From: Spirobacillus cienkowskii
Lineage (GTDB): Bacteria > Bdellovibrionota_B > Oligoflexia > Silvanigrellales > Silvanigrellaceae
DNA length: 62,907 nucleotides
Assembly: GCA_003339605.1 (NCBI GenBank)
Contig: QOVW01000001.1
Coordinates: 1 to 62,907 of the forward strand
Reading direction: 5' to 3'
The notes beneath the pieces are model-generated. The model saw only the letters and a list, made by a program, of their open reading frames with translations. It made no database searches and had not been told where the DNA came from. Positions 1 to 62,907 of the stretch are shown in pieces; positions within the stretch are counted from its first letter, which is position 1, and every line of letters starts with the position of its first letter. The position numbers and the translations under genes are program-made.

Positions 1-42
1 ACGCTAAAACCTTAGTTCAAGCACGCTAAAACCTTAGTTGAG
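1..42. repeat. Iterons of the plasmid origin (left end)
   Basis: Two copies of a 22-bp direct repeat, core ACGCTAAAACCTTAG. The first lacks its leading GC because the window begins inside it; the second is at 21-42. Two more copies end the window, so the array spans the closure point of a circle. Tandem 22-bp repeats beside a Rep gene are the hallmark of iteron-controlled theta origins. The AT-rich stretch at about 60-150 would suit strand opening, but I see no clear DnaA box. Confidence 0.85.
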
Positions 43-13536: not shown

Positions 13537-13587
13537 TTTCTCATCCTTTGCGAAAATTTGTGAAAAAAACCCTTGGCGCTAAAAATT

Positions 13588-13675
13588 TGTCAGACACATG
13601 ATATATTAAAAAACAGTTGTCACAATTAGTAAAGTCTCTGTCAGACAAACTTTTTAACGTCAGACAATTGTCTGA
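13588..13675. repeat. TCAGACA repeats: operator or recombination site
   Basis: TGTCAGACA occurs at 13588-13596 and 13639-13647, and a perfect 16-bp palindrome TCAGACAATTGTCTGA lies at 13660-13675. They fill the 320-base gap (13537-13856) between the divergent recombinase and ParB-like genes. Candidates are the core/accessory site of the recombinase or operators for the ParB-like or KfrA-like protein. No gene is seen in the rest of the gap. Confidence 0.6.
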
Positions 13676-15435: not shown

Positions 15436-15673
15436 CTTATCCATTTATAATGGTTGAGAAAAATTATTTAGTTTTCTTTTAATAGTCTTGTCCGCTATTT
15501 AGGTGGTTGAAAAATTATGGATATTTATTAATGGTTTTATCCGCCTCCGGCGGTTGAGAAATTATGATTATAGGTATTTTTTATACTTTATCCGCTCCAT
15601 AAGCGGTTGAGAAATTATGGATATATATAAAACAAAGTAATTGTTTATTCCGCTGTAATAAGTGGCTGATTTT
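15436..15673 (+). CRISPR. Five-unit type I-F-like hairpin array, atypical spacers
   Basis: Five units at 15436-15461, 15487-15514, 15536-15561, 15587-15614 and 15645-15673. Each has 5 flank bases, a 5-bp stem around a 3-6 base loop, then a tail. The best, 15587-15614, is exactly 28 nt: TTTAT, CCGCT-CCATA-AGCGG, TTGAGAAA. Canonical I-F repeats have the same architecture and end CTAAGAAA. Stems covary between units (CCATT/AATGG, CCGCC/GGCGG, CCGCT/AGCGG, CCGCT/AGTGG). Intervening stretches are 25, 21, 25 and 30 bases instead of about 32, and most begin TTATG, so they are not ordinary independent spacers. The last unit is degenerate. Adjacent to cas2-3. Confidence 0.6.
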
Positions 15674-15694: not shown

Positions 15695-18600
15695 TTAAGT
15701 TTCCCGAATACCCAAACCTAATATAGGGTGATAATTAAGTTTTTTATTTTTCCAATAATATGGTACTTTTATTGATGCAAGTTTTTTTAATTTTTTAGAA
15801 TTGTCATCATCGTTTTTTTCTTTTAGTAATATTTTTTCTAATTCTTTTAATTCTAGGCTTAAATTATAGTCAATAAAAAAATTTCTTTTACTTTTTATAA
15901 CATTGTTATGCTCTATAATACTCATGGACACAGCAAAATCATTGTTATGAGTGGGTAAATTTGACTTAGTTTTTAATAACCATCTATCCCATTTTTTTTC
16001 ATTTAAATATGCAGGAAAGTACTCATCTTCAATTGCAAAATTATTGTTTCTAAATCTTGTTTTTATAAAAAAATTTTGTGTCAAACGATGTTTTTTATTT
16101 TTTATAAATTCTTCTAAACTATATTTATTCTTAAAATTTTTAAGCAAATGCTCTCTCAGCTCTATCAGTTCTACTGCGGTTAATGGAGAATCAAGATAAT
16201 TTTTTAATTCTAGCAAACAAAAACTCGAGTCAATTTTTTTGGCAACTTCAGCAAAGATTGCTTTTTCTGCATCTCGAATACGCGTAATTACAATATCTTT
16301 TTTTATTTCCAACTCAATTCCAGCATTTAATAATTGTTCTTCGACTTTTCTATATACTTCATAATCAATATTATCTTTTTTAGGATAATCAGCCTTTCGC
16401 AGTGCACGCCAACCAAAATGTGAAAACACCCCAAGTTTTGCATCCGTTTCTACGCCAGGATATGCCCAACTATTTGGTTTTTCTTTTTTGCTGTGACTCT
16501 CAAACCAAGTTTGCGAAGAAAATCTTAATATTCCTATGTTTGGTCCGGTTGGCAAACACTGAGGGCGATGCCGTAACACCCTTCCCGAAGCCTGCACAAT
16601 AGAACGGGTTGAGCACGGATCAAGAATTGTCCAATCGTAATCATGATCACGACCCGTTTCTTGAATACTTGTTGTAGAAACAAGCATCATCACATTTTTT
16701 GGAAAATCATTTTGTTCATACCATTTTTGAAATTCAGGAGAATTCAAAAGTATTTCTGGATCGTTGCAATTTTCAGATCTTTTTAAACCTTTATCTAAAA
16801 AGCTTTCGACACGTCTTCTATCAACAAAATTTAAATAACTATGATAACAAAACACTGCAATTTTTAACTCACTTTTTGATTTTTCTTCATCCATTAACCA
16901 TTTTGCAAAATCACGACAAATATGCGTGCGATTCCACCTGACAAAACCAATTGAAAATCTAAAAGAGTTGTTTTTTACCATATATGAATGTCTTAAATGC
17001 ATGCGCTCTGCGGCATTCAGCACAATGTTAAAATTTTCTTCCTCAAAATTTTTCTTATCTTTTACTTCAATAAATTCAGCATAATGTTTTTCTGGTGATT
17101 TTTTTAAATAATTGCAGTGATTTAATAAAAATTCATTGTAATATTTGTTAAATTCATCATTATTATTTATAGGCATTAATTTTGCAGAGCTGCATGAACT
17201 ATAATTACTACCTAAGCAGACAATTATATTTTGTTCATTGTTATTTTTTAAATTTCTATCTTTAACGCCATCTAAAAAAGCTTCATACAATTTTTGCACA
17301 ATAATATTTTGGACACTTGCAGACGATAACACAATATTTCTTCCGTAAAACCCCGTTAAGTAAACCAACCGACCAATACTTACCAAATCAGATGCTGCAA
17401 AAGAATCTATCTCATCAATTGCCAAATCCGAAGTCATCAAGCGCAATGCCATAAATGATTCACTGCCTCGTATAATTTCTGCGCCTGAAATTAAATGATC
17501 TATTGTTGCCACAACAATAGGTGTAGATAAAATTACTTCTTGGGTTTTATTTAAAAATGGGATGCTTTTATTATTACTTTTTCCACCAATTACAAAATTA
17601 GCGTCATCGAGTTCTGCTAAAAGCTGCGGAGAATTTGAGCTGCCATCTTGTGGATCATACATCAAATCATTATTTTCAGCTTGAGACTCCCAAATTTCTC
17701 GAGTTAAACGATCACCAACCACCACAGCAACGTCGGATTCATCATACAATTTTTTATATTCACTACCAGTTTTTAACGTTAAGCTTCGTAAACCTAATCC
17801 TAAAGAATATCTCAGTTTATGATCTTGTGCTGCGGCAGAACATGCTAAAGCAATGGCACGTGTTTTTCCACTTCCAGAAGATGAAGTCAACACACAAAAA
17901 ACTTGCGCAGATGCATTTTCTTTTTTTAATTGATCAATTTTATGATACACTTCATGCTGCCATAAAAATCGTGCATTCTCAGGTTTTGTAGATTTTAATG
18001 GCATTGCCGCAGAAAACGCTTCACTGTTTAAAAAAATGCTGTTAAAATAAACTTTAGTGTAATGCGCTACTTTATTTAAATGAACGTCTAAAGTGTCTGC
18101 ATAATATTTTTCATCATTTTGCAAAATTGTATTTGTAAAAATTGTAGAATTTAATGATAAAGAATCACCTAAAAATTTTTCTTTTTTTTCTGATCCCATG
18201 TAGTCAGAAATAATAAGAAGTGGTCTTAAATAATTTGGAACATAGGTATCAATAAAACTTTTATTATTTAAATTGTTTTGCAAATATTTTGCAATAAAAC
18301 CACATTCTTTTGCAACCAATGCACACCAAGATTGCGTTCCTGTATTATCCCAAGGTTTTTTACCTTCTTTTAATGTTAAAAAATTTAAAAATTCTTCAAG
18401 CAACTCTTTTTCTAAAATTTTTGAAGAGTCAACAAATTCTGCACGCCAAAAGTTTTTAACACCAGAGCAAACTCGCAAATCTTTTGCTTCTGGTAATTTG
18501 TGATGAGTGAGCACAAGCCATAAAACATATTCAATAACTTTTGATTGATGAGAATTACTCAATAAAAAGTTACTAAATTGTGGCCAAGGATCACGAATTG

Positions 18601-19228
18601 CTGTTTTGCAATACTTATTTAAACTACTTTTAATAATATTAAGATAATTATCGGAATTTTCAGAAAAACATTTGTGCACATTCTCTTCGTTTGATAGTTG
18701 CTGAAATATAAAATTATCATCCATATTATTTTTTATAATACCATAAATAATTAAACATGATACAAGCTCATGTCGAACCACATCTTTTTTAATTTTATAG
18801 TTACCGTTTTTAGAAAGTGCGTTATTGAGCTTTTCTTGAAAGCCAACTGTTGCCTGGCCAAGATCATGGAATAAAGCAGACAATTTTAAAATAGAAAGCA
18901 AAAACTGCTCTTCATCTGATTTAAAATACAATTCCACTTCATGCTGCATTTTTGTTATAGAATAACTGTATTCACCATTTTCATTATAATGTATTTTATT
19001 TCCAACATGAAAAAGAAGTTTTATATCATTATATTTATCAATTTTGTAACAAGTAATTGCTGTTTTTTTACTTGAATTTTTTATAAGTAAATCGCGAAAA
19101 TCTTGTAATTCCTCATCAGATATATTACCGATCCATGTACGTCTAGCAATTTGTTTTAATTTTGACAAATTTTTTTTCGTGTCAGGTAATGAATCTTTGG
19201 TGCATTCGCTCACGCACAAAATTAACAT
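15695..19228 (-). CDS. cas3f: Type I-F Cas2-3 fusion (helicase-nuclease)
   Basis: 1177 residues. The first about 95 match the Cas2-like domain of I-F Cas2-3 (ILCVSECTKDSLPDTKK, ARRTWIG, KKTAITCYKI). HD nuclease: H121-D122 in LFHDLGQATVGFQ, H153 in RHELVS, HH in VLTHHKLP; the usual Lys of HDxGK is Gln125. Superfamily 2 helicase: Walker A SSSGSGKT near 450, the family block LGLGLRSLTLKTG, DEID near 604, LSSAS, and motif VI QASGRVLRHRP near 882. Length fits the family and no frameshift is seen. It normally degrades DNA marked by the Csy complex and partners Cas1; neither Cas1 nor Csy1-3 is encoded here. Ribosome site AAGGAGAT. Confidence 0.92.
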   Translation of the reverse strand: MLILCVSECTKDSLPDTKKNLSKLKQIARRTWIGNISDEELQDFRDLLIKNSSKKTAITCYKIDKYNDIKLLFHVGNKIHYNENGEYSYSITKMQHEVELYFKSDEEQFLLSILKLSALFHDLGQATVGFQEKLNNALSKNGNYKIKKDVVRHELVSCLIIYGIIKNNMDDNFIFQQLSNEENVHKCFSENSDNYLNIIKSSLNKYCKTAIRDPWPQFSNFLLSNSHQSKVIEYVLWLVLTHHKLPEAKDLRVCSGVKNFWRAEFVDSSKILEKELLEEFLNFLTLKEGKKPWDNTGTQSWCALVAKECGFIAKYLQNNLNNKSFIDTYVPNYLRPLLIISDYMGSEKKEKFLGDSLSLNSTIFTNTILQNDEKYYADTLDVHLNKVAHYTKVYFNSIFLNSEAFSAAMPLKSTKPENARFLWQHEVYHKIDQLKKENASAQVFCVLTSSSGSGKTRAIALACSAAAQDHKLRYSLGLGLRSLTLKTGSEYKKLYDESDVAVVVGDRLTREIWESQAENNDLMYDPQDGSSNSPQLLAELDDANFVIGGKSNNKSIPFLNKTQEVILSTPIVVATIDHLISGAEIIRGSESFMALRLMTSDLAIDEIDSFAASDLVSIGRLVYLTGFYGRNIVLSSASVQNIIVQKLYEAFLDGVKDRNLKNNNEQNIIVCLGSNYSSCSSAKLMPINNNDEFNKYYNEFLLNHCNYLKKSPEKHYAEFIEVKDKKNFEEENFNIVLNAAERMHLRHSYMVKNNSFRFSIGFVRWNRTHICRDFAKWLMDEEKSKSELKIAVFCYHSYLNFVDRRRVESFLDKGLKRSENCNDPEILLNSPEFQKWYEQNDFPKNVMMLVSTTSIQETGRDHDYDWTILDPCSTRSIVQASGRVLRHRPQCLPTGPNIGILRFSSQTWFESHSKKEKPNSWAYPGVETDAKLGVFSHFGWRALRKADYPKKDNIDYEVYRKVEEQLLNAGIELEIKKDIVITRIRDAEKAIFAEVAKKIDSSFCLLELKNYLDSPLTAVELIELREHLLKNFKNKYSLEEFIKNKKHRLTQNFFIKTRFRNNNFAIEDEYFPAYLNEKKWDRWLLKTKSNLPTHNNDFAVSMSIIEHNNVIKSKRNFFIDYNLSLELKELEKILLKEKNDDDNSKKLKKLASIKVPYYWKNKKLNYHPILGLGIRET

Positions 19229-20123: not shown

Positions 20124-20711
20124 TTAAAAATGCGGAACGCCCAAACCTTTAGGTGCAAGACCATAACCTGAAAATTTTAATTCTTCTTGGGAATTAAAAT
20201 CAATTTCTGCTAGTTCTCGTGCAATAAAAAGCGTATAATTTCCTAAGTATATAGTATGAATATCCTTTTTTTGCACGATACTTTCGATTGATTTTTTAAG
20301 CTTTTCTCTGTCAAAAGGGAGATTTTTTCGAGTAGCTCTTCTTTTCATCCTATCTAAATAATTGGGGCTTAGTTTTTCCGTTACGCGATCTCTGTAAAAT
20401 CTATAATAAGTATTTACATCATCCGGCACTAAATCAATATTGCTTATTTCAATTAAATTACGATCTGAAAAATTTTTTAATAATTCCGCATTTCGCATGA
20501 ATAATAAAACTCCCCAATCATTTTCATTTGCAAAAAAACGGATTGAATTTCCAATGTTTTTTTCGTTCCAATTTGGAAATGAAACCGCAATTTTTCCTTC
20601 AGATTGATTGATAGTATTGAAAAAAAACTTAAAAATATTTCTAATATCTACATTGTTTTTAAAATCTGGAAGCATAAATATTTTAATTTCAAAATAACAA
20701 TCTAAAAACAT
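20124..20711 (-). CDS. cas6f: Cas6f (Csy4)-like protein, catalytic residues apparently lost
   Basis: 195 residues, the family length (about 187). Matching features: KIAVSFP at 40-46 (IGVSFP in Csy4), the Arg-rich helix SPNYLDRMKRRATRK at 115-129 that holds the repeat hairpin, and the C-terminal SGYGLAPKGLGVPHF (YGLSKGGFVPWF in Csy4). By hand alignment the catalytic histidine (Csy4 His29) falls in KFFFN, with no His. The loop carrying Csy4 Ser148 is shortened to IYLGNY, with no Ser. It may therefore bind but not cut the hairpins; nearby residues could substitute. Csy4 normally cleaves pre-crRNA at the base of the stem. Confidence 0.8.
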   Translation of the reverse strand: MFLDCYFEIKIFMLPDFKNNVDIRNIFKFFFNTINQSEGKIAVSFPNWNEKNIGNSIRFFANENDWGVLLFMRNAELLKNFSDRNLIEISNIDLVPDDVNTYYRFYRDRVTEKLSPNYLDRMKRRATRKNLPFDREKLKKSIESIVQKKDIHTIYLGNYTLFIARELAEIDFNSQEELKFSGYGLAPKGLGVPHF

Positions 20712-26755: not shown

Positions 26756-27046
26756 TCATAAAACTTTTTGTGTCGATTTTTTTGCTTGAAATTCTAGTCG
26801 ACTAGATCTATTCTTAGAAAGAACAAAATTTTTATAATAGAATTTATTATAAGTTTTTTGCTTTTCTTTTCGTAGCTCTAAACTCATTATTTTCTCTTCT
26901 GCTGTCAGTCGTTTTCGCCCTCTTTTTTTTAATACTTTAGCTTTTTTGTTAGAGTAATTATGATGATCGTAGCAAAAGTATTTCATATCTCTTGTGCGCG
27001 AGTAAGTATTTTGAATTGCACAGATAACACATTTTTTATTAATCAT
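26756..27046 (-). CDS. Small zinc-binding basic protein
   Basis: 96 residues. CVIC near the start plus CYDHH 20 residues on form a likely zinc site, followed by a very basic AT-hook-like segment KKRGRKRLTAEEK. Probably binds nucleic acid. Its start overlaps the stop of the upstream replication gene. Confidence 0.5.
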   Translation of the reverse strand: MINKKCVICAIQNTYSRTRDMKYFCYDHHNYSNKKAKVLKKRGRKRLTAEEKIMSLELRKEKQKTYNKFYYKNFVLSKNRSSRLEFQAKKSTQKVL

Positions 27047-28209
27047 GCGATAGCTCCAAAATCGACTTTATTAATAAAAGGTTTATACGAATTAATAGAT
27101 GGTAATACATAATTTAAAAACTTATCTTTTCCAAAATTTTTTATTTCTTTTTTTACATTTCTTTTACAAATTGATGGAAGTTGATTGTACCAATTTTTAA
27201 AAGATACTGGAAAATCATTAATATTTATATTATGATTATATTCTGAAATTACACTTTTTATATTTACTTCTAACTTTTTTTCTGTTTTTTTATTGATTGA
27301 ATGGTCGTCTTTATAATCTAGCTTCTCTTTTGAAATAATTGTTTCAATCTTTGATTCAAAAGAATCTAAATATTTATTATTGTTTATAAATATTTCAAGT
27401 TCATTAATAAAAATTGATTCAATATTATTATAGTTGTTTATTTTGTTATAAGCATTATTTTTTAATGCAGCTTTACAAAATGAAAGTATAATACTTACTT
27501 TATCAATCTTTAATTTATCTACAGCTTTTTTAATAATGTCTTCGCACTCAAAATTCGGAATAAATCTCTTATTAAGTTTCTGCTTTAAAAGCTCGCAAAC
27601 AATGATTGATGCTTGTTTTATAGATTTAAAACATTTTTTGTCAACTACTGTGTCTGTGTGTGAATTTTTTTCTACACAATAATTATTAGGAATTAGATTT
27701 AAGGAAGAATAAGAAGGAAGAATGTTAGCATCTCGTGCATCCTTGGGGCGATCATGATGCACTACGGCACTGCTTTTAATACATTGCTGTAACTTATTTG
27801 AGTCGCATGTGACTTTGCTATCTTTAATATTATAACTATGAACATGGGAGTCGTGTAGCTGCTTTCTTGTTCTTATTAAGTACTCAAAATATTTATTAAA
27901 TATTTTATCAGTGAAGCAGAAGCTGTTTTCTTCTTGTAAAAAAGTTTTGAATGAAAAATTTTCTTTTTTATTGATATAGCCTAAATCAATTAATTCTTTT
28001 AAAACTTTTTGAACAGTTCTTTTTGCAAAGCTTGTTTCTGACGAAATTTTTGAGATTGAAATTTTTAACCAATTTTTAAAGTCTGATCTAAAATCTAAAT
28101 GAGATGCTATACAATGTAAAATTAATTTTTGAGATGAATTTAATATTTCATTTTTCCATATTGCATTTAATGATCTGCCACCAGAATTAACATCATATAA
28201 TTTTTCCAT
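27043..28209 (-). CDS. Phage replication initiator with helix-turn-helix domain
   Basis: 388 residues. The N-terminal winged helix (LKISISKISSETSFAKRTVQ, then LKELIDLGYI) is that of phage O-like or plasmid helix-turn-helix replication proteins. A long polar linker and a helical C-terminal domain follow. First gene of the early - strand operon (28.2 to 23.0 kb), with AAAGGAT before the ATG and operator repeats beyond. It would start lytic replication, separate from the Rep/iteron plasmid mode. Confidence 0.6.
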   Translation of the reverse strand: MEKLYDVNSGGRSLNAIWKNEILNSSQKLILHCIASHLDFRSDFKNWLKISISKISSETSFAKRTVQKVLKELIDLGYINKKENFSFKTFLQEENSFCFTDKIFNKYFEYLIRTRKQLHDSHVHSYNIKDSKVTCDSNKLQQCIKSSAVVHHDRPKDARDANILPSYSSLNLIPNNYCVEKNSHTDTVVDKKCFKSIKQASIIVCELLKQKLNKRFIPNFECEDIIKKAVDKLKIDKVSIILSFCKAALKNNAYNKINNYNNIESIFINELEIFINNNKYLDSFESKIETIISKEKLDYKDDHSINKKTEKKLEVNIKSVISEYNHNININDFPVSFKNWYNQLPSICKRNVKKEIKNFGKDKFLNYVLPSINSYKPFINKVDFGAIA

Positions 28210-28505
28210 AAAAAATCCTTTCTAAATTAAATAATAAATAATTTTAACTAGAATGAAATAATAATTTATTTTTTTTAAAGTATCGTTATAAAGTATATAA
28301 TATTTATGTTTAAAATTATGATCAAAAAACATTACATACCTTTTAAAAATAAAATAATGTTTACTATATATACCAAATATTTTTCTGCAAAAAATTACAC
28401 ATAGTAAAAAAAATGTGTTACTGTAAATTTTAACAGTGTAAAAAATTTACACTTTTTGGTTTTGTTGTCAATTGTTATTTTTTTATTTAATTTTTGGGAG
28501 GCTAA
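28210..28505. promoter_or_regulatory. Divergent control region with three inverted repeats
   Basis: 296 bases between the early replication operon and the + strand immunity operon. Three related inverted repeats cluster at 28395-28453: ACACAT/ATGTGT (28397-28418), TTACTGT with ACAGTGTAA (28419-28441), and AGTGTAAA/TTTACACT around three bases (28435-28453). A shared half-site like TTACACT suggests a lambda-type OR/OL operator for the repressor at 30.2 kb. GGGAGG precedes the MFS gene. Confidence 0.65.
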
Positions 28506-29684
28506 ATGAATCGTAAGAATTTTGTTAAAAGTTATGCATCTAGTATATTTATATCATTTATTGAATGGTTTGAATTCCTAATTTTTGTTTACATATTTTT
28601 ACAAATATTTGATAACTCATTTTTAAGTTTTTTTCAAAAAAGTGGTATTTTATTAAGTTTTTTTGCAAGACCAATTGGAGCTTTAATTTTTGGAAAACTT
28701 TCTGTAAAAAAGGGGAGAATATATAGTTTAATTTCAACAGTAAATTTAATGATAATTTCTTCATTTTTGATTATTCTTGCTACAGTATTTATGAAAAATA
28801 TTTATTTATGCGCTTCATTGGCTATTATTGCAAGAATTATTCAAGGCGCAGCAATTGGCGCGGAAACGACAACTTCATTGCTTTATATCTTTGAAATATC
28901 AAAGAATAAAGCCACAGCAATAGCATGGGGAGGTCTTGGATCAGCTTTAGGTATGGCTTTAGCTTCTTATGCACCAACTCTTTTAAGTGGAATTGAATCA
29001 ATTGAAATTAAAATATATCTCGCGTATTCATTATCAATTGTAATTTCATTTATTGCTTTGTTTGTTAGAAAATCATTAATTGAAACAAAGAGTACAAATA
29101 CTAAAGTTAATTTTAATAAGGAGTATTTATCTTTATCTCTTAATATTTTTAAGTATTCATTCCCTTTCGTATTTATTGTGTACTATGTGTTTTTAATATT
29201 TCCAGATTACATACAAAATACATACAATTTAACTAATGAAGTTTCAGAAAAATATATAACTTATTTCAGTATTTTTACTGGATTCGCACCAATATTTATT
29301 GGAATGATTGCTGATAAGTATGGTTTAGATAAAGTATTAAGAAGTTCTGTAATATTATCTATTTTATATATACCAATTTTTGTTTTAGTTAAAGATCCAT
29401 TTATTCATATTACTTTTATATCTTTAATTATGTCTTTATTCTTTACTGTTGGGCTTACAAAACTATTTAAATCTAATTCAATTGATATGTTATATATAGG
29501 TTTTCCATTTCTTTATAATTTAATGGTAGCTATAATTTCTTCTCAAATAGTATTGTTCTTTAATATTGGTCTTAGCCATGATTTCATTTTTATATCATCT
29601 TTAGTTTTTCTAGCAATTTTATATATTAAAGATTTATACAATATGATTTATCAATTTATTGAAAGGAAAGTCTATGTTAATTGA
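28506..29684 (+). CDS. MFS transporter (metabolite:H+ symporter-like)
   Basis: 392 residues, about 12 predicted membrane segments. Signatures of the MHS/ProP-like MFS branch: FIEWFEFLIFVYIF in helix 1, FFARPIGALIFGKL before the loop-2/3 basic motif, and ARIIQGAAIGAETTTSLLY in helix 4. Transport direction and substrate are unknown. MFS pumps are rare in phages; this one is first in an operon with a LuxR-like receptor, a repressor and an acetyltransferase, and overlaps the receptor gene by 11 bases. It could import or export the ligand of that receptor. Confidence 0.85.
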   Translation: MNRKNFVKSYASSIFISFIEWFEFLIFVYIFLQIFDNSFLSFFQKSGILLSFFARPIGALIFGKLSVKKGRIYSLISTVNLMIISSFLIILATVFMKNIYLCASLAIIARIIQGAAIGAETTTSLLYIFEISKNKATAIAWGGLGSALGMALASYAPTLLSGIESIEIKIYLAYSLSIVISFIALFVRKSLIETKSTNTKVNFNKEYLSLSLNIFKYSFPFVFIVYYVFLIFPDYIQNTYNLTNEVSEKYITYFSIFTGFAPIFIGMIADKYGLDKVLRSSVILSILYIPIFVLVKDPFIHITFISLIMSLFFTVGLTKLFKSNSIDMLYIGFPFLYNLMVAIISSQIVLFFNIGLSHDFIFISSLVFLAILYIKDLYNMIYQFIERKVYVN

Positions 29685-30201
29685 AAGAGTTACAAAATCA
29701 ATCGAACAAGAGTCTGCTTTAAAAGTAAAATATTTTGAAAAAATTTTTAAGGAAACTAGTGGAACAATATTTGATAAATTGTCTTTTTCAATATCAGAAT
29801 TAAATGAAAATAAATCTGTGCTTATTACTAAAAATATGGCATGGCTTGAGAAATATATTAGCAATAAATTATATCTTTACGACCCAGTTTGCGATTGGGA
29901 AGATAACGCAACATATTATTTAAAGAATAGTGCAAAAATTGCGACAGAATTTATTGACATTGAAAGAATTCATGATAATAAAAATGGAAATATGTTTAGA
30001 GATATTAGACGTAGCTTTAAAATAGAAAGCGGCGGTGTCAGTGTTACTTATTTTAATGGAACGGTTTTATTTGTAGGCTGGTGGTCGTCTCAAAAATGTG
30101 TTAAAGATTATTACTCGCACGAAAATAGAAAAATTAGCGAGAATATTATTAAAGACATTTTATCTATTTATTGTGAAGAAAAAGGGGAAATTTTAGCTTA
30201 A
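29674..30201 (+). CDS. LuxR-type ligand-binding domain protein lacking the HTH
   Basis: 175 residues from ATG 29674 with GAAAGGAAAG upstream. Residues 49-71 (VLITKNMAWLEKYI then LYLYDPV) fit the autoinducer-binding domain of LuxR proteins: W57, Y61, D70 and P71 occupy the positions of the residues invariant in TraR. ESGGVSVTYF (118-127) matches the conserved glycine region, and a Trp-rich strand follows. The tryptophan equivalent to TraR W85 is not evident, and the C-terminal LuxR helix-turn-helix is absent. It may bind a small acyl-type signal and act by touching the repressor encoded next. Confidence 0.55.
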   Translation: MLIERVTKSIEQESALKVKYFEKIFKETSGTIFDKLSFSISELNENKSVLITKNMAWLEKYISNKLYLYDPVCDWEDNATYYLKNSAKIATEFIDIERIHDNKNGNMFRDIRRSFKIESGGVSVTYFNGTVLFVGWWSSQKCVKDYYSHENRKISENIIKDILSIYCEEKGEILA

Positions 30202-30204
30202 ATT

Positions 30205-30858
30205 ATGGAGTTTATTAATAAAATGAAAACACTGGGAGATAGAATAAAGTTTTGTATTGAACTCACAAAATTAACAAAACCTAAGCTAGCAAAGAAGTAC
30301 TTAATTAGCATATCATCGCTTCATTGTTATGAGAATAACACTAAAAAGCCATCAGAAAAGCGATTAAAAATGCTACTTGATATATTTAAAAAAGAAAATG
30401 TTATTACTAGTTACCAATGGTTAAAACAAGGTGTTGGTGATTTACCAAGAGAGTTTAAATGTATCGATTATAATAAAACTATTAATAATGAAATGAATTT
30501 TGATAGTATAGAATTAATAAATTATGAATTAAAAAATGCGGCAAATAAGTATAAAAATTCAGTTCATTTTATTTGTAATACATTTGAACTTGAACCCTCT
30601 ATTTTTTTTGGTGATTGGGTTTTAGGTATTAAAATAAATAGTTCTGACGTTAATAAATATGAAAAATACCCATTTTTATTTAAAATAAATAATATAACTT
30701 ACTTAAAGTATATTGCTAAAATAAATGAAAATGGTAGTTTAAATTTAATCGGAATTAATCAGAAGTTTTCTAAAAAAGACTATTTTATTCCAAACGTATT
30801 TCCTGAGGTTATAGCCCCAATTTTTTGGATTAGACGAAATCCAGACCATTTTATTTAA
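30205..30858 (+). CDS. CI-like repressor (XRE HTH plus degenerate S24 domain)
   Basis: 217 residues. An N-terminal XRE-type domain (LTKPKLAKKYLISISSLHCY, then KKPSEKRLKMLLDIF) is followed by a C-terminal LexA/S24-like domain: LEPSIFFGDWVLGIKI aligns with the SMEPTIxxGDxVLV block and PEVIAPIFWIRR with the last strands. The catalytic serine is not obvious, so RecA-stimulated self-cleavage may be lost; induction could instead come from the adjacent receptor or from the ImmA-like protease. Start at 30205 or 30223 is uncertain. Divergent operators lie upstream of the operon. Confidence 0.72.
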   Translation: MEFINKMKTLGDRIKFCIELTKLTKPKLAKKYLISISSLHCYENNTKKPSEKRLKMLLDIFKKENVITSYQWLKQGVGDLPREFKCIDYNKTINNEMNFDSIELINYELKNAANKYKNSVHFICNTFELEPSIFFGDWVLGIKINSSDVNKYEKYPFLFKINNITYLKYIAKINENGSLNLIGINQKFSKKDYFIPNVFPEVIAPIFWIRRNPDHFI

Positions 30859-30874
30859 AAGAATAGAGATTTTT

Positions 30875-31342
30875 ATGAGCATTATAATAGCAAATGAAGA
30901 GCAAATTAAACAATTTATTAATATAACTCAAGATGCAAGAACAAGTCTTGATTATCCATTAAGTTATGTTGAATTATTTGAGAAATTTTTATTCGACTCT
31001 TTTGTCACAAAAAGAATATTAAACAATAAAATTAATTTGCTTGATATAGAAGATAACAAACAAAGAGGTTATATTTCTTTTGGATTATTTAATGAATCAA
31101 TTGTTGAAGTTGGTTTTTTATTTGTTTGTGCTGATTTTCAAAATAAAGGAGTTGGTACTAATTTATTAAAACATTGCGAAATTATCTCAAAAAATTTTAA
31201 TAAAAGCATAATAAAAATAGCCGCAGAACCTCAATCAATTGATTTTTATCTTAAACATAATTATATTTTAACTGATGAAAGCAAAGCATCATCTGTAGTA
31301 TCTAATTTAAAATATCCATATGTTATTAAGTATTTAAATTAA
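30875..31342 (+). CDS. GNAT-family acetyltransferase
   Basis: 155 residues with the acetyl-CoA loop FVCADFQNKGVGTNLL (Q-x-x-G-x-G) and the following EPQSIDFYLKHNYI typical of GNAT motifs A and B. Substrate unknown. It ends the MFS-receptor-repressor operon and converges with the Bet gene (four-base overlap of 3' ends). LuxI-type signal synthases share the GNAT fold, but this sequence looks like an ordinary small GNAT. Confidence 0.8.
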   Translation: MSIIIANEEQIKQFINITQDARTSLDYPLSYVELFEKFLFDSFVTKRILNNKINLLDIEDNKQRGYISFGLFNESIVEVGFLFVCADFQNKGVGTNLLKHCEIISKNFNKSIIKIAAEPQSIDFYLKHNYILTDESKASSVVSNLKYPYVIKYLN

Positions 31343-32313
31343 CATGCGCTCGCATATACAAACTCTTTTTCAATACTCAAAATATGATCTTTTAATTTTG
31401 ATAATGGAACTCCCGCGCTTTTTTCGCTAAAAAAAACATATACTTGTAACAGTTTATCTTTTTTCTCCGCATCTGTGATTTGTTCTTGCTTTATTTTTAT
31501 AACTGTTTCAATTTCTTGCATAAACTTTTTAAAAATTTCTTTTTGAACGGCATTTTTTTTGTTAAATTTTTCGTTGTTATTATTAATATTTTTTAGTGTT
31601 TCAATTACTTCATTTTGAACTATAATTTTTGAGTTATTTTCTTTTTGTTTATTTTCAACAACAACTTCAGCTACGTAAACTTTTTCTTCATTTTGTTCTT
31701 GTACTTTATTTATTTGTTTTTCATTTTTACTTTCTTCGTTATTATAAGCTTGCGACATTTCTTCGTTTGAATAAAGTCCAGATAAATCATTTGGAAATGC
31801 TTTTCTTAACGCTAAAGCTTCCGCGCATTTTCCCAGCATTAATTCTGGAAATTTTTTCCACATGTCAGAAATTATTCCGCTAGTATATTTTTGAACATAT
31901 GAGTCCCATTTCGCTATAGCGTATGTTGGTTCTGTGTATCCTGTTCTGTAAATACCAACTTTTGCAGCAAATGGATATTCTGCTTTAGAAGACTCTCCTA
32001 ACCAAATTTCGCTCCAAACCCCATCTTTTCCACAGAATAAAGTAGTAGTTTGACCGGCATATTCGGGATTTCTTGACGCAATCGCTCTAAAACCATCGAT
32101 CGATACAATTACTGTTCTACTCTTTCCGAATTGCACAGAATAGATTTGTTTTGAAAATGGATCTAATCCTGTTCTCTTACAAGTATAAAGGAACATCTCT
32201 AGTTCTTCGTTAGTCGCTCCTTTCGCTATCGAATTCTTAATTACATTGATTTGATCTTCTGTAAAATTGCTTTGCAAAGAAACAGTCGATGTTTTTTTTA
32301 CTAATGCTGTCAT
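31339..32313 (-). CDS. bet: Phage single-strand annealing protein (Bet/RecT)
   Basis: 324 residues from ATG 32313, fixed by AAAAGGAGTCCAAC. Bet-family core: FLYTCKRTGLDPFSKQIY, IVSIDGFRAIASRNPEYAG and a C-terminal MLGKCAEALALRKAFPNDL. It anneals complementary single strands in phage recombination and replication restart, binding SSB. The last 110 residues are a low-complexity, charged tail. Divergent from the Gp157-like gene across a shared control region. Confidence 0.9.
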   Translation of the reverse strand: MTALVKKTSTVSLQSNFTEDQINVIKNSIAKGATNEELEMFLYTCKRTGLDPFSKQIYSVQFGKSRTVIVSIDGFRAIASRNPEYAGQTTTLFCGKDGVWSEIWLGESSKAEYPFAAKVGIYRTGYTEPTYAIAKWDSYVQKYTSGIISDMWKKFPELMLGKCAEALALRKAFPNDLSGLYSNEEMSQAYNNEESKNEKQINKVQEQNEEKVYVAEVVVENKQKENNSKIIVQNEVIETLKNINNNNEKFNKKNAVQKEIFKKFMQEIETVIKIKQEQITDAEKKDKLLQVYVFFSEKSAGVPLSKLKDHILSIEKEFVYASAC

Positions 32314-62868: not shown

Positions 62869-62907
62869 GCACGCTAAAACCTTAGTTCGAGCACGCTAAA
62901 ACCTTAG
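62869..62907. repeat. Iterons of the plasmid origin (right end)
   Basis: One complete 22-bp iteron (62869-62890) and a 17-base partial one (62891-62907). Joined to position 1 they continue the array, but with a 15-bp step at the junction instead of 22 bp. Confidence 0.85.

Follow-up and report, generated by a model that had tools for sequence, protein, structure and literature searches.

Four adjoining genes of a phage-plasmid binned with Ca. Spirobacillus cienkowskii seem, with slightly better than even confidence on our part, to form an immunity/maintenance cassette whose repressor is controlled by a small molecule. They encode an MFS transporter, a LuxR-type receptor lacking an HTH, an XRE repressor with a dead S24-like domain and a GNAT acetyltransferase, and belong to a stretch of 62,907 nucleotides which was analysed as a whole and is hereafter called the window. 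The cassette and its immediate surroundings are laid out as follows:

27043–28209, minus strand: replication-initiation O-like protein (repO-like), the divergent neighbour of the cassette (phrog_270, E 5.5e-9)
28210–28505, no strand: divergent intergenic region between the repO-like and MFS genes, candidate operator (half-sites and a palindrome; statistically weak)
28506–29684, plus strand: MFS transporter (Pfam MFS_1, E 2.4e-11)
29674–30201, plus strand: LuxR-type autoinducer-binding domain alone, 175 aa (sub-threshold Pfam match plus profile–profile comparison)
30205–30858, plus strand: XRE repressor with a dead S24-like C-terminal domain (HTH_19, E 7e-7; PHROG repressor families)
30875–31342, plus strand: GNAT acetyltransferase (Acetyltransf_1, E 1.2e-8)
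31339–32313, minus strand: RecT single-strand annealing protein, the convergent neighbour (Pfam RecT, E 1.4e-31)

The four genes, predicted in the first-pass annotation to be a tightly packed operon, are real: open reading frames on the same strand occupy all four positions, with an 11-nt overlap between the MFS and receptor genes followed by gaps of 3 and 16 nt. The lambda-like operators proposed in the same annotation fared worse. The perfect palindrome AGTGTAAAAAATTTACACT (28435–28453), located upstream of the MFS gene, has an 8-nt arm equalled in 75 of 200 shuffles of the same AT-rich region, i.e., it is no better than chance. The GTGTAA/TTACAC half-sites at 28395, 28436 and 28447 place 3 of the window's 17 such sites inside 60 nt, its densest place; this motif was picked after it had been seen here, and its clustering is to be read accordingly. 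Comparison of the receptor–repressor modules revealed no operator common to them.

The window itself is best read, by its gene content, as a phage-plasmid of the myovirus type. It combines, on one element, the genes of the virion (terminase, portal, head/capsid, sheath, tape measure, baseplate and endolysin) with those of replication and partition typical of plasmids (ParA, an actin-like protein and a primase-type zinc-ribbon/AAA protein), this combination being the hallmark of phage-plasmids; a tyrosine recombinase is encoded as well. An exact 15-nt overlap between the ends of the window (1–15 and 62893–62907) suggests that the element is circular. The putative host is a pathogen of Daphnia (water fleas) known from a draft genome of 126 contigs and 2.74 Mb (PMC6284087) and from a complete genome of 2.81 Mb (a single contig of 2,806,830 bases, G057), in whose 2025 description the species was regarded as plasmid-free (PMC12321486).

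The repressor carries an XRE HTH (Pfam HTH_19, PHROG repressor families), and its S24-like domain is recognised via two relatives (L011 and L038), both above the Pfam cut-off. In the alignment with E. coli LexA and the CI protein of ARM81ld, controls in which the catalytic Ser and Lys are both intact, the window protein displays Glu in the column of LexA Ser119 and retains the Lys. Thus, the degenerate S24 domain described earlier is confirmed as a broken Ser–Lys dyad, and the cleavable repressor, which had been named in advance as a finding contrary to a small-molecule switch, is not what the alignment reveals. Every tested receptor-linked repressor lacks Ser, Lys or both; the orphan XRE protein L007, which has no receptor neighbour, possesses both. 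Judging from the chemistry of LexA, RecA-type self-cleavage is unlikely in the receptor-linked repressors, since their dyad is broken. A search with the XRE/S24 family profile found no second CI- or XRE-like protein among the 537 window ORFs of at least 35 aa, leaving this repressor as the only evident candidate for conferring immunity.

The receptor is, as judged by profile comparison, a LuxR-type ligand-binding domain without the DNA-binding part. As a single sequence, the window protein remains below the Pfam threshold (Autoind_bind, E 0.025); Pfam alone misses most members of the group, whose homology is seen by comparing profiles built from few and divergent sequences. HHalign alignment of a profile of 19 receptor proteins, adjoining or related to this XRE/S24 repressor family, with a profile of eight canonical LuxR-type ligand-binding domains (TraR, SdiA, the LuxR of ARM81ld and others) gave a probability of 95%, E 2.5e-8 and a score of 55 over 109 collinear columns. 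The real scores spanned 37–55, and the controls (the LuxR profile reversed, plus 60 column permutations of it) peaked at 12 with the same query and at 18 with any query. The genus-only and gammaproteobacterial subsets match separately (E 4e-5 and 7e-6, respectively), and the receptor of the Aquicella module exceeds the Pfam Autoind_bind cut-off. At the same time, no LuxR/GerE HTH was matched in any receptor examined, the window ORF stopping at 175 aa, and hence the protein is unable to act as a classical LuxR: of the LuxR-like receptor announced in the first-pass annotation, the ligand-binding domain stands but the classical regulator does not. Five of the seven residues of the TraR pocket signature are kept (W57, Y61, D70, P71 and G113); Y53 and W85 of the AHL receptors are missing, so that the pocket may accept a different ligand or none at all.

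Structural comparisons give weak corroboration at most. The AlphaFold2 models, built from three usable sequences only, are poor (pLDDT 42 for the receptor and 55 for the repressor); Foldseek ranked LasR, RhlR and SdiA at the top for the receptor model, with a non-significant E of 0.2, and returned nothing useful for the repressor model, which is too poor to confirm the S24 fold. A direct sequence search of the PDB with the receptor yielded no match. A search for LuxI likewise had no match, its controls matching nowhere either. A strong Autoind_bind match in the genome G001 was considered as a module receptor and set aside, as it looks like a frameshifted canonical LuxR.

The complete MFS–receptor–XRE–GNAT block is repeated in an independent IMG/VR contig (L002), the closest relative, where the respective identities to the window are 62%, 51%, 56% and 48%. 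The absence of MFS and GNAT from close relatives, another finding named beforehand as adverse, is therefore not the case, although the expected conservation of the four-gene block is borne out only in part, GNAT being missing from the other cassettes. Viral-sequence scans matched only L002 and the G006:C10 record, and two scans of genome contigs produced no match. A reordered XRE–MFS–receptor set occupies the equivalent site beside recT in G004:C8 (63 kb) and G006:C10 (68 kb), related elements whose terminase is 77% identical to that of the window; in G006:C10 the set is followed by the repO-like gene. The flanks of the latter cassette (locus L038) are 45% (repO), 58.5% (recT) and 54% (a gam-like gene) identical to those of the window, and the cassette itself only 22% (XRE), 28% (MFS) and 21% (receptor), so the cassette is either exchanged or fast-evolving. 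The receptor and repressor distances correlate only weakly after the removal of close relatives (Mantel r 0.23, p 0.047).

The transporter is, by its match to NCBIfam TIGR00883 (E 3.6e-23, far below the family cut-off), seemingly a distant relative of the metabolite:H+ symporters of the ProP/KgtP/ShiA type, with 51% identity to its counterpart in L034. The GNAT accompanies receptor and XRE only in the window and L002 and is hence considered an optional accessory; its candidature for a LuxI-like synthase was rejected, there being no Autoind_synth match. Both features lend some credit to the idea that only the receptor–repressor pair is regulatory, MFS and GNAT being morons, cargo genes which the lysogeny promoter drives to the metabolic benefit of the host, all the more so as the GNAT found beside a related XRE in Legionella is not a clear homolog of the window protein (26%, score 17). 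We regard this reading as unlikely. It is opposed by the recurrence of an MFS of the same broad family with receptor and XRE at six loci in varied orders (the window, L002, G006:C10, G004:C8, G004:C5 and G006:C4). Its presence in L002, in both related phage-plasmids and close to a further two receptor–repressor pairs argues that transport, sensing and repression belong together, as the first-pass annotation had supposed.

Receptor–XRE pairs are not confined to phage-plasmids: they occur on chromosomes and plasmids of the same genus, mostly with a thioesterase and/or an SDR:

G004:C5: receptor–XRE pair with MFS
G006:C4: receptor–XRE pair with a thioesterase and a nearby MFS
G006:C1: receptor–XRE pair with a thioesterase and an SDR
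G004:C4: receptor–XRE pair with an SDR
L042, L044–L046: conserved chromosomal receptor–XRE pair with a thioesterase, adjoining ribD/rpsO

At the ribD/rpsO site (L042 and L044–L046 versus L040 and L043), the thioesterase looks decayed in G006, with XRE only in G004 and G005. In G002:C1 (L035, 6355–7578), the receptor is fused in-frame to XRE-S24 within one ORF of 407 aa, as counted from the ATG chosen. Outside the genus, tblastn with the window repressor led to Serratia marcescens plasmids, where genes for XRE, a receptor of 169–172 aa, an SDR and a thioesterase form a series oriented divergently to the tra operon. A search with the Serratia receptor led further to plasmids of Piscirickettsia and Aquicella encoding XRE, an “autoinducer binding domain-containing protein”, an SDR-type dehydrogenase and a thioesterase, and the Aquicella receptor, in turn, to a receptor–XRE–thioesterase set on a Dongshaea plasmid. 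In Serratia and Aquicella, the XRE–receptor–SDR–thioesterase modules (L086, L087 and L095) diverge from F-type tra genes or lie in their vicinity, which suggests signal control of conjugation. Legionella plasmids harbor a related XRE without an annotated receptor, adjoining GNAT or alpha/beta-hydrolase genes. On a Legionella anisa plasmid (L096) and in L085, related XRE/S24 genes adjoin tra (and csrA) genes, the receptor being replaced by an alpha/beta hydrolase, a substrate-binding protein and a sensor kinase, or by a GNAT.

The chromosomal modules by ribD and rpsO, having no phage function, recall a local metabolite-responsive regulon, in which XRE and the receptor would control only their own transporter and enzyme while lysogeny is set elsewhere; many XRE proteins are autoregulators. 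Such a restricted role appears improbable for the window, somewhat more so than the cargo reading, given that no other CI- or XRE-like protein came to light among its 537 ORFs, that the repO/recT position is common to three phage-plasmids and that the Serratia plasmid module diverges from the tra operon. Least probable of all, and very doubtful, is that the LuxR-like domain has ceased to bind a ligand and operates as a constitutive partner whose effect depends on its own dosage, for instance as an antirepressor or a dominant-negative subunit: the variation of the pocket, with D70 being Cys or Ser in several members and W85 gone throughout the genus, and the precedent of TrlR, a truncated TraR without the HTH known as dominant-negative, point that way, yet the window receptor keeps W57, D70 and G113, and the genes linked to it, for a thioesterase, an SDR and a transporter, speak for a metabolite.

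Under the preferred reading, i.e., an immunity/maintenance cassette under small-molecule control, the dead-S24 XRE protein would repress the divergent repO side as well as, probably, the operon in which it is encoded. Since it is probably non-cleavable, this protein needs another inducer, which would most likely be the neighbouring LuxR-type ligand-binding domain rather than RecA-dependent cleavage. Without a DNA-binding part of its own, the receptor needs a partner through which to act, and XRE is taken for this partner because of their association, the strongest genetic one, and their fusion in one genome (G002). Most likely, the receptor would bind the repressor, with the S24-like domain serving as a docking and dimerisation surface; when occupied by a small hydrophobic ligand, it would either strengthen or relieve repression. 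The MFS may carry the ligand or its precursor across the membrane, the thioesterase and SDR of the sister modules would probably make or modify it, and the GNAT may be an optional modifier. The physical interaction, the ligand, the direction of the effect and its output in lysogeny are what we infer here. Direct contact is a simple and testable prediction, as the receptor has no DNA binding and is fused to the repressor in one genome.

A broader generalisation, which we put forward tentatively and do not hold to be the likelier outcome, is that the HTH-less LuxR-type domain joins a non-cleavable XRE/S24 repressor as the subunit that brings it under ligand control. The signal would be a non-AHL one of the fatty-acyl type, made and moved by the linked thioesterase, SDR, GNAT and MFS, and the module would serve phage-plasmids for lysogeny, conjugative plasmids for transfer, and chromosomes as well. 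Such a family of signalling modules is not described in the open-access literature searched.

The cassette is probably a variant of the known phage XRE–LuxR switches, with a receptor devoid of DNA binding which probably acts via the repressor. In Apop and ARM81ld, both plasmid-like phages, neither XRE nor AHL-bound LuxR can be dispensed with, their mode of cooperation being stated as unknown and the question of whether the two proteins touch as open (Silpe et al. 2023, PMC10432266). As in the window, the xre and luxR-type genes of these phages adjoin each other on a plasmid-like phage, and the input is SOS-independent there (PMC10432266). In contrast to the HTH-less window receptor, their LuxR bears the HTH (p37 of ARM81ld, 252 aa), and their xre is short (375 nt); they possess a separate CI (p46, with Ser and Lys kept) and a small antirepressor as the output, whereas XRE is the sole CI-like repressor of the window. 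In Roseobacter prophages, xre–luxR–luxI operons replace cI/cro as the lysogeny switch and are swapped as a unit (Bunsick et al. 2026 preprint, PMC13345283). The window cassette is similarly divergent from the lytic side and may likewise be exchanged as a unit between related phages, but the Roseobacter operons feature LuxI and LuxR with a known AHL, whereas no luxI was seen in the window, which has an HTH-less receptor with MFS and GNAT instead. With the S24 repressors of the LexA/CI type, the window repressor shares the XRE HTH (that of CI) and the S24-like C-terminal domain, differing by the broken dyad and the adjoining receptor gene. The receptor itself resembles LuxR solos and the LBD-only TrlR, i.e., it is an autoinducer-binding domain with no partner synthase seen; unlike them, it is repeatedly paired with an XRE/S24 repressor, including one natural fusion.

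Links between the element and S. cienkowskii come from the complete genome, whose type I-F-like CRISPR array (G057:C1:2329000-2337000, L102) includes three spacers matching the window:

1774–1806: protospacer, 0 mismatches, CC PAM
30414–30446, plus strand: protospacer inside the repressor gene, 1 mismatch
13573–13604: protospacer, 4 mismatches, CC PAM

Shuffled spacer controls never fell below 8 mismatches over the three spacers, or below 10 for the spacer matching 30414–30446. Because of these matches, S. cienkowskii must meet the window element or a close relative of it, and one of its lineages appears, from the spacer sequence, to have been vaccinated against the repressor gene. A search for cassette DNA in this complete genome matched nothing beyond the spacer, so the strain lacks the cassette; none of the four spacers visible near a contig end in the draft strain's own array matches the window. 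Among the window genes are also those of a Cas2/3-like protein of type I-F and of Cas6f (15695–19228 and 20124–20711), accompanied by short I-F-like repeats at 15488–15631 with an unusual spacing of 47–53 nt. Csy1–3 were not recognised in the genes between or beside these two, and it is possible, as far as gene content tells, that the window carries a reduced or divergent I-F system.

If the proposed control is true, the dead-S24 repressor would provide mobile elements with an SOS-independent route of induction, and the distribution of the module suggests that one and the same device would govern the lysogeny of phage-plasmids as well as the transfer of conjugative plasmids. The timing of moves by mobile DNA may thus depend on a chemical signal instead of DNA damage, and the linked enzymes point towards the chemistry of that signal.
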